NCBI GenBank assembly: GCA_946553025.1
Contig: CAMNRM010000048.1
Location: 1-40,663 of the forward strand
DNA from: an uncultured Clostridium sp.
GTDB lineage: Bacteria > Bacillota > Clostridia > Lachnospirales > Lachnospiraceae
Length of the DNA stretch: 40,663 nt
Reading direction: 5' to 3'
Program-made: the position numbers and the translations under genes
Shown here: positions 140 to 531 of the stretch, piece by piece
Layout of the letters: each line of letters opens with the position of its first letter
How positions within the stretch are numbered: position 1 is the first letter of the stretch
The notes under the pieces: generated by a model
What the model was told of the DNA's origin: nothing
Seen by the model: only the letters and a program-made list of their open reading frames with translations
Database searches by the model: none

Positions 140-168
140 TTGACTTTTTATCGCCCTTCCAATATACT
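140..168 (+). promoter_or_regulatory. Strong sigma70-type promoter of the small peptide gene
   Basis: TTGACT (140-145) and TATACT (163-168) are separated by exactly 17 bp. Transcription would start near 175, giving a leader of about 100 nt before the 36-residue ORF at 274. Confidence 0.75.
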
Positions 169-273
169 ATACCCATGGTGCTGTTAAAGCGGTAGGACGG
201 TTGCCTTCTTCCAGAGAGTACAAGCTCTGTTTACATAAAGAGATTTGGAAATTAACGAAGGAGGAATTTGCGT

Positions 274-384
274 ATGATAATGGTTACACTTGAATCTATT
301 TATTACATCGTAGTTATCACAAGCATTCTTTGCGGCGCAGCTTACAAGCTGGGCTACGAGAACGGTAAAAACGCAAAAAAGTAA
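274..384 (+). CDS. Small single-span membrane peptide (36 aa), candidate type I toxin
   Basis: The ORF has a good ribosome-binding site (GAAGGAGG around 258-265). It encodes a 36-residue peptide with a hydrophobic stretch (about residues 9-24, containing YYIVVITSILCGAAY) followed by a short lysine-rich tail ending NGKNAKK. That is the usual build of small membrane-active type I toxins and holin-like toxin peptides. The stop codon lies inside the left arm of a perfect hairpin at 376-420, so coding region and terminator overlap. A convergent promoter on the minus strand (503-531) would make an antisense RNA over the 3' end. Assignment as a toxin is an inference from size, hydrophobicity and layout; I did not match it to a named family. 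Confidence 0.65.
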   Translation: MIMVTLESIYYIVVITSILCGAAYKLGYENGKNAKK

Positions 385-496
385 TCGTCCTGGGCCTGAG
401 AAACCTGATGATTACTTTTTTATAAAAATATTCAATTTCAGGGCAGCCGTCTTGCTCTACGGCAGCACCTCTTCAAAGAAAGCATTTTTCATTTCC
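373..496 (-). ncRNA. Putative antisense RNA (antitoxin) overlapping the 3' end of the peptide mRNA
   Basis: On the minus strand TTGACA (531-526) and TAGAAT (508-503) are spaced by exactly 17 bp, predicting a start near 496. The RNA would fold a local hairpin (GCCGT/ACGGC arms at 446-450 and 459-463). It would end at the shared hairpin near 373, overlapping the sense mRNA by about 50 nt. The RNA is inferred from promoter, hairpin and terminator; no expression data are available. Confidence 0.55.
376..420. terminator. Bidirectional terminator shared by peptide mRNA and antisense RNA
   Basis: Perfect 11-bp stem, AAAAAGTAATC (376-386) and GATTACTTTTT (410-420), with a 23-nt loop. The A-run on one side and T-run on the other make it a plausible intrinsic terminator on both strands. 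Confidence 0.75.
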
Positions 497-502
497 ATTC
501 TT

Positions 503-531
503 ATTCTACCCCATACATAAAAATTTGTCAA
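503..531 (-). promoter_or_regulatory. Promoter of the putative antisense RNA
   Basis: Near-consensus TTGACA / 17 bp / TAGAAT on the minus strand, pointing at the convergent small peptide gene. No coding gene with a ribosome-binding site lies downstream of it. Confidence 0.7.

Follow-up and report, generated by a model that had tools for sequence, protein, structure and literature searches.

We describe a candidate type I toxin–antitoxin cassette at positions 140–531 of a 40,663-nucleotide contig from an uncultured Clostridium sp. of the Lachnospiraceae (CAMNRM010000048.1; the whole stretch is the window here), and a family of related loci that appears to be widespread in the Lachnospiraceae. 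We place the probability of this reading at about 0.7. The relatives are best read as a type I family in which one RNA scaffold carries several unrelated hydrophobic peptides. Sequence comparison shows that the gene is under selection, that the leader structure is conserved, that a promoter faces the gene and that a helix coevolves, with wobbles pointing to the sense strand. Judged on this evidence, the cassette is real, conserved and unnamed in the libraries searched, with a putative function. Its features in the window are as follows.

140–168, + strand: promoter of the predicted toxin mRNA, TTGACT-17-TATACT, with a start expected near 175–177
177–266, + strand: structured leader of the predicted toxin mRNA, conserved in relatives and captured by covariance model R1, comprising a 5′ hairpin, a second hairpin at 212–229 (CAGAG/CTCTG) and a conserved TTTACATA at 230–237
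177–205, + strand: 5′ element of the end-to-end helix, complementary to 441–469
204–211, + strand: leader anti-Shine–Dalgarno (anti-SD) sequence CCTTCTTC, pairing with 257–264 in the short-form fold
257–264, + strand: Shine–Dalgarno (SD) region GAAGGAGG, ending 9 nt before the ATG at 274
274–384, + strand: membrane peptide (putative toxin) of 36 residues, ATG 274 to TAA 384
375–421, either strand: central hairpin with a 12-bp stem, terminator-like in both directions
372–496, − strand: predicted antisense (antitoxin) RNA of about 125 nt, delimited by its promoter and the hairpin
441–469, + strand (mRNA strand): 3′ element, GGGCAGCCG..CGGCAGCACC, complementary to the 5′ hairpin region of the predicted antisense RNA
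503–531, − strand (−35 at 531): promoter of the predicted antitoxin RNA, TTGACA-17-TAGAAT, with a start expected near 496

A first-pass annotation, made from the letters alone, had proposed the two facing promoters, the 36-codon reading frame and its ribosome-binding site, and all are present where it placed them. Its perfect hairpin between A- and T-runs is also there, with a stem of 12 bp rather than the 11 bp given (375–386 with 410–421, around a 23-nt loop). The hairpin has a folding energy of −17.8 kcal/mol when read from the + strand (z −5.7; equalled by 0 of 200 shuffles) and of −15.5 kcal/mol from the − strand (z −3.7; equalled by 2 of 200), and the stop codon of the peptide (382–384) lies inside its 5′ arm, as had been noted. 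The facing promoter was said to have no gene of its own, and among frames of at least 25 codons none starts within the predicted antisense RNA. The structured leader, the anti-SD sequence, the 3′ element and five further copies in the genome had gone unmentioned.

Taken alone, the promoter pair in the window is not beyond chance: 3 kb of the window hold 7 promoter-like sites, with 6.2 ± 2.8 expected. The case therefore rests on relatives; judged against their sequences the locus is not a chance arrangement, because both the facing and the toxin promoters are conserved in them. Elsewhere in the window, 711–850 on the − strand is a C-terminal remnant (YVDGYYLGADGAWVPAN) without a full gene, which resembles what we take to be a cell-wall-binding repeat.

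A protein search with the window peptide reached 8 of 397 family genomes, including its own, with nine places at E ≤ 0.01. One of the nine (L011) is spurious, as is a weaker match (L004, E 0.08): both lie inside long open frames, of 609 and 236 residues, that presumably encode a conjugation-type protein. L012, also among the nine, is a 3′ fragment left next to one genome's second copy; a match in the window's own genome (L002) has E 0.26. A DNA search of 100 family genomes added loci of the same layout with diverged peptides (L014, L015 and L021). Far more productive than the peptide search was the RNA leader model R1, built from ten aligned leaders (the window's and those of nine relatives). 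At E ≤ 0.001 it matched 72 of 299 family genomes (62 of the 245 of good quality) and, in a phylum-wide draw, 4 of 299, namely the window's own, two of the same family and one of another family. Within the genus, 3 of 11 genomes were matched: the window's own six times, one congener seven times and another once. Tandem leader copies spaced 370–480 bp within one genome occur at L108 (4097–4606), L118 (2735–3303) and G279 contig C1 (4464–4932).

Scanning contigs of named genomes for the 3′ element gave at least 119 stretches. Among the 80 listed, 55 also have a leader match at E ≤ 0.01 anywhere in the available sequence, and in several of those without one the element lies near the edge of the available DNA. 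Hosts with both leader and 3′ element include Blautia luti, Roseburia porci, Butyrivibrio hungatei and Coprococcus comes; outside the Lachnospiraceae by name, Anaerovibrio lipolyticus has both, and a Megasphaera sp. has a weak leader (24.9 bits). Nine viral contigs have the 3′ element and all nine have the leader, four of them with identical scores that may mark near copies. The window locus and its peptide had no match among plasmids and phages. One relative's locus matches one phage record and two Lachnospira eligens replicons; in the replicon examined, the gene table, which is incomplete, has no gene at the place of the cassette. A metagenome-assembled contig titled Bacteroidales (L157; JAMPFJ010000003.1) also carries the cassette, and its title is probably wrong.

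We analysed 82 loci (40 from searches, 40 of the additional places found with the leader model and two peptide hits). Six without a 3′ element, broken or cut (L026, L033, L073, L080, L099 and L100) were dropped, leaving 76. These are not independent: some share a genome or differ hardly at all, and leader similarity brought in most of them. By eye, L099 does have a diverged 3′ element. Promoters were scored in 75 loci, the swap test used 75 unique pairs, the leader alignment holds 69 sequences and 70 loci were folded. At the Rfam gathering score the window gave no match and 20 scanned loci gave one tRNA only; at a lax threshold, positions 100–560 of the window gave five matches, all far below gathering scores (best E 0.055). 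No paper was found with fragments of the family's peptides and DNA, in a search that took in few subscription papers and no supplementary tables. An earlier description may exist; the candidate structured RNAs of PMC8040213 could, for instance, include one.

The 36-codon peptide of the window is under purifying selection by sequence comparison: pN/pS within its subclass is 0.11–0.51 in all 15 pairs of six loci from six genomes, at pS values (0.50–1.02) near saturation. For 28 loci with 32-residue peptides the median pN/pS is 0.31 over 366 pairs, 95% of which fall below 1. This is the one unbiased measure on the peptides, because the script that chose reading frames favoured hydrophobic ones. 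With that bias, hydropathy is membrane-like (KD19 ≥ 1.6) in 73 of 76 peptides, and the window peptide reaches a KD19 maximum of 2.0. Lengths run from 25 to 48 residues (median 32), and the last ten residues of the 76 peptides have a mean net charge of +2.2. When sorted by profiles built from their own members, 67 of 76 fit a first profile, six a second (the five from which it was built, and L090) and two a third, and one (L039) fits none; similarity between the profiles is undetectable.

The comparison with holin-like toxin families that had been suggested for the peptide was run and reached no toxin or holin family in Pfam, NCBIfam or PHROGs. Neither the window peptide nor 15 relatives gave anything at cut-off in Pfam or NCBIfam, and six peptides gave E 0.07 or worse in PHROGs. 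Two Pfam candidates from relatives were rejected as falling short of the curated thresholds: a segment of complex I (20.2 bits, where 24.5 is required) and DUF1072 (17.8 bits, where 25 is required). Both Pfam and NCBIfam contain an Fst model, and neither the window peptide nor the 15 relatives matched it; nine aligned peptides have no proline and hence no PXXXG(C) motif of the Fst/Ldr type. No NCBIfam or Pfam match to TxpA or BsrG was obtained, in libraries that may lack a model for them.

Most peptides share a pattern around LGY..G that goes beyond mere hydrophobicity. A pattern of this type would suit a small regulatory membrane peptide, not a toxin, with the antisense RNA tuning its expression. 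We consider this unlikely: the dissimilar profiles on one scaffold share hydrophobicity and a basic tail, as membrane-disturbing toxins would, and the cassettes are multi-copy and patchy, present in 3 of 11 genomes of the genus.

The antisense side recurs in the relatives, where the first-pass annotation had suggested looking for it. In 55 of 75 loci a promoter scoring at least 10/12 faces the gene from no more than 75 nt upstream of the 3′ element, versus 4.5% of shuffles; a toxin promoter of the same score is present in 30 of 75, versus 2.6%. By sequence, then, the family has a conserved promoter for an overlapping antisense RNA. The exact −35 hexamer TTGACA occurs in 44 of 75 antisense versus 8 of 75 toxin promoters, as would suit an antitoxin RNA that is produced in excess. 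In eight copies, four of them in the window's genome (L056, L058, L059, L061, L064, L077, L079 and L089), the gap between the element and the best antisense promoter is 40–45 nt where 10–16 is usual, and the extra sequence resembles another small hairpin.

The stop codon is paired in the 5′ arm of the central hairpin in 68 of 76 loci, a count taken without a shuffled control. T-tracts of at least 5 T in 8 follow this hairpin in 69 of 76 loci for the antisense RNA and in 52 of 76 for the mRNA, and on the mRNA strand such a tract follows the 3′ element in 63 of 76, so the mRNA may end there. The window is an exception within the family: it has 7 T at the central hairpin, the better tract for the mRNA, and 3 T after the 3′ element. 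The suggestion that the two transcripts share a single terminator and overlap by about 50 nt is probably incomplete, given the T-tracts of the family and the pairing of the 3′ element with the mRNA 5′ end.

Both leader hairpins covary. Among 60 distinct rows 98.0% of cells are paired, with 35 double changes (0 of 500 shuffles); the rows are further loci, at most ten of which could have built the model, aligned by fitting to that model, and some share their genomes with loci of the 76-locus set. The pairing of the anti-SD with the SD is absent from the leader covariance model; RNAalifold detected it in the alignment of 69 leaders, 54 to 67 of which can form it, depending on the base pair. Six loci (L051, L063, L079, L083, L085 and L096) have about 50 nt extra in the loop of the second leader hairpin; the extra sequence is alike in four loci of different genomes, as if a small repeat element homes there.

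The 3′ element lies 45–65 nt past the stop codon in 73 of 76 loci, the exceptions being three with longer frames, and on the mRNA strand it nearly complements the first ~30 nt of the leader. Inverted repeats with 6 or more exactly matching nt link the two in 75 of 76 loci, versus 20% of shuffles. Cognate partners pair far better than swapped ones: over 75 unique pairs the energies are −40.6 and −32.4 kcal/mol (z −19.5; 0 of 10,000), and the same test per block gives z −13.7 and −14.7. Leader and antisense RNA in trans showed no coevolution (z −0.7; p 0.15 and 0.90 in a separate test), and on these tests their pairing was rejected as the coevolving interaction.

These results bear on a par-like version of the cassette, in which the central hairpin terminates both RNAs and direct repeats let the antisense RNA pair in trans with the leader and ribosome site as well, as in par of pAD1. 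A direct repeat (CGGTAG) is indeed shared by leader and 3′ element, the longest direct match reaching 6 nt or more in 46 of 76 loci versus 18% of shuffles, and the central hairpin is terminator-like in both directions, strongly so in the window. We nevertheless judge this version improbable, because the direct repeat at the SD region is at chance (8 of 76 loci versus 7.4%), leader and antisense RNA have no cognate preference, and the strong repeat is an inverted one.

Differences between the two copies of the inverted repeat lean towards one strand. Across the 76 loci, 202 leave a G·U pair on the sense strand and 16 on the other, with 15 transversions; two fixed positions supply much of the 202. 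By locus, 73 of 76 lean to the sense strand, one leans the opposite way and two are ties. The count is 105 to 18 (27 transversions) within the blocks alone, 64 to 15 (25 transversions; p = 2 × 10⁻⁸) as distinct events, and 20 to 9 (21 transversions) once only the position and kind of change are considered. From these comparisons a sense-strand helix is likely. In 15 loci, representing six variants, the leader's first nine letters are identical to the antisense copy, and leader-specific pairing could add to the wobble bias.

The wobbles also speak to a DNA-level role for the repeat, either as the ends of a small mobile cassette or as two operators through which one regulator acts on both promoters. 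Near-identical inverted repeats of ~25 nt flank the gene and vary together between loci, and there are several copies per genome, including tandem pairs, all of which such a role could explain. It is very unlikely in our view: the 202:16 excess of G·U-compatible differences on the mRNA strand is not predicted by DNA recognition, both conserved promoters lie outside the repeats, and the leader hairpins and anti-SD are conserved as RNA.

If the mRNA runs past the central hairpin it can, by sequence and folding, close end to end; in the window this would require readthrough of the hairpin with the better T-tract (7 T versus 3 T). In this long form at least 10 leader–element pairs are expected in 70 of 70 folded loci, counted without a shuffled control. 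The anti-SD is displaced, with expected anti-SD:SD pairs falling from 3.3 in the short form to 0.4 in the long (8.3 and 5.8 in the window). The mean unpaired fraction of the SD is 0.26 in the short form and 0.32 in the long; 9 of 70 loci are opener by more than 0.2 and none is more closed. A hok-like inert long form is not supported by these models, because folding does not show the SD to be masked in the long form.

For the type I cassette we tentatively propose the following mechanism. The toxin promoter would give a short mRNA for a single-pass membrane peptide that probably inhibits growth. The facing, usually stronger promoter would give an antisense RNA over the mRNA 3′ end, the stop codon and the central hairpin. 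While the mRNA is being made, the leader anti-SD would shut the ribosome site; once transcription has passed the central hairpin, a ~25-bp helix between the 3′ element and the first ~30 mRNA nucleotides would form and displace the anti-SD. By capturing the 3′ partner, the antisense RNA would let the anti-SD reclose, and the duplex would be marked for RNase III. We infer toxicity, both transcripts, readthrough and this order of events, as well as any effect of the helix, which may protect, activate or silence the mRNA. That this is a large Gram-positive type I family whose conserved RNA scaffold carries interchangeable unrelated peptides, and whose antitoxin steals the 3′ partner of a 5′–3′ helix so that the leader shuts its own ribosome site, seems to us possible at somewhat less than even odds. 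If true, control would work by competition for the far end of the messenger and not by masking its start.

Damaged loci can be set beside this proposal. In L008/L026 the peptide ATG is out of frame and the 3′ half is degraded, a double decay in keeping with a toxin that cannot be left without its antitoxin. L073 does not fit simply with such decay: its toxin frame is intact, followed after the stop by other sequence, with no 3′ element before the contig edge. An inserted stretch lies behind the leader of L080, which has no 3′ element. In L033 an unrelated frame that looks like a transposase start directly follows the leader and ribosome site, an apparent insertion between the SD and the toxin gene.

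If the reading is right, about a quarter of sampled genomes (72 of 299) in a dominant family of the human and ruminant gut carry peptide/antisense modules, unnamed in the protein and RNA libraries searched and in some cases on contigs labelled viral. The covariance model offers a means to find further cassettes, and the family provides a comparative set for the role of end-to-end folding of toxin mRNAs and for control of translation start by 3′-binding antisense RNAs.

Among known systems, long-distance pairing of the hok and aapA type is found here by sequence and folding, provided that the mRNA reaches the 3′ element. The antisense RNA IsoA pairs at the 5′ region of its target. The toxin mRNAs of aapA/IsoA and hok/Sok likewise have 5′–3′ long-distance pairing and metastable SD-closing hairpins, but in hok and aapA the long-distance pairing closes the SD, which folding does not show here (PMC6733600). 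hok and Sok pair at their 5′ regions (PMC6562991), whereas the antisense RNA here covers the mRNA 3′ end. In par of pAD1 (fst/RNA II), as here, promoters converge on a central bidirectional hairpin and a 5′ stem–loop sequesters the SD, and Fst is a 33-residue membrane peptide with a charged tail; the strong flanking repeats are inverted here and direct (DRa/DRb) in par (PMC7472228). The CD2517.1–RCd8 modules of Clostridioides difficile are also convergent type I systems of Clostridia with a long overlap, set apart by description, with toxins of 50–53 residues; the main text of that review does not mention Lachnospir, Blautia or Roseburia (PMC6563280).

The bsrG/SR4-like geometry and type I toxin/antisense class assigned at first pass are well supported by comparative sequence, with activity and transcripts putative. 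bsrG/SR4 and txpA/RatA of Bacillus subtilis likewise have convergent promoters, a 3′-overlapping antisense RNA and an SD closed by the leader (PMC6562991). For bsrG, SR4 binding to the mRNA 3′ end lengthens the SD-closing helix and RNase III cleaves, and the mechanism proposed here would be close to the action of SR4 on bsrG mRNA (PMC6562991). The peptides here have 25–48 residues, compared with 58 for YonT of B. subtilis (PMC5848175). What sets the present family apart from bsrG/SR4 and txpA/RatA, and would serve as its hallmark, is the coevolving ~25-bp end-to-end helix.
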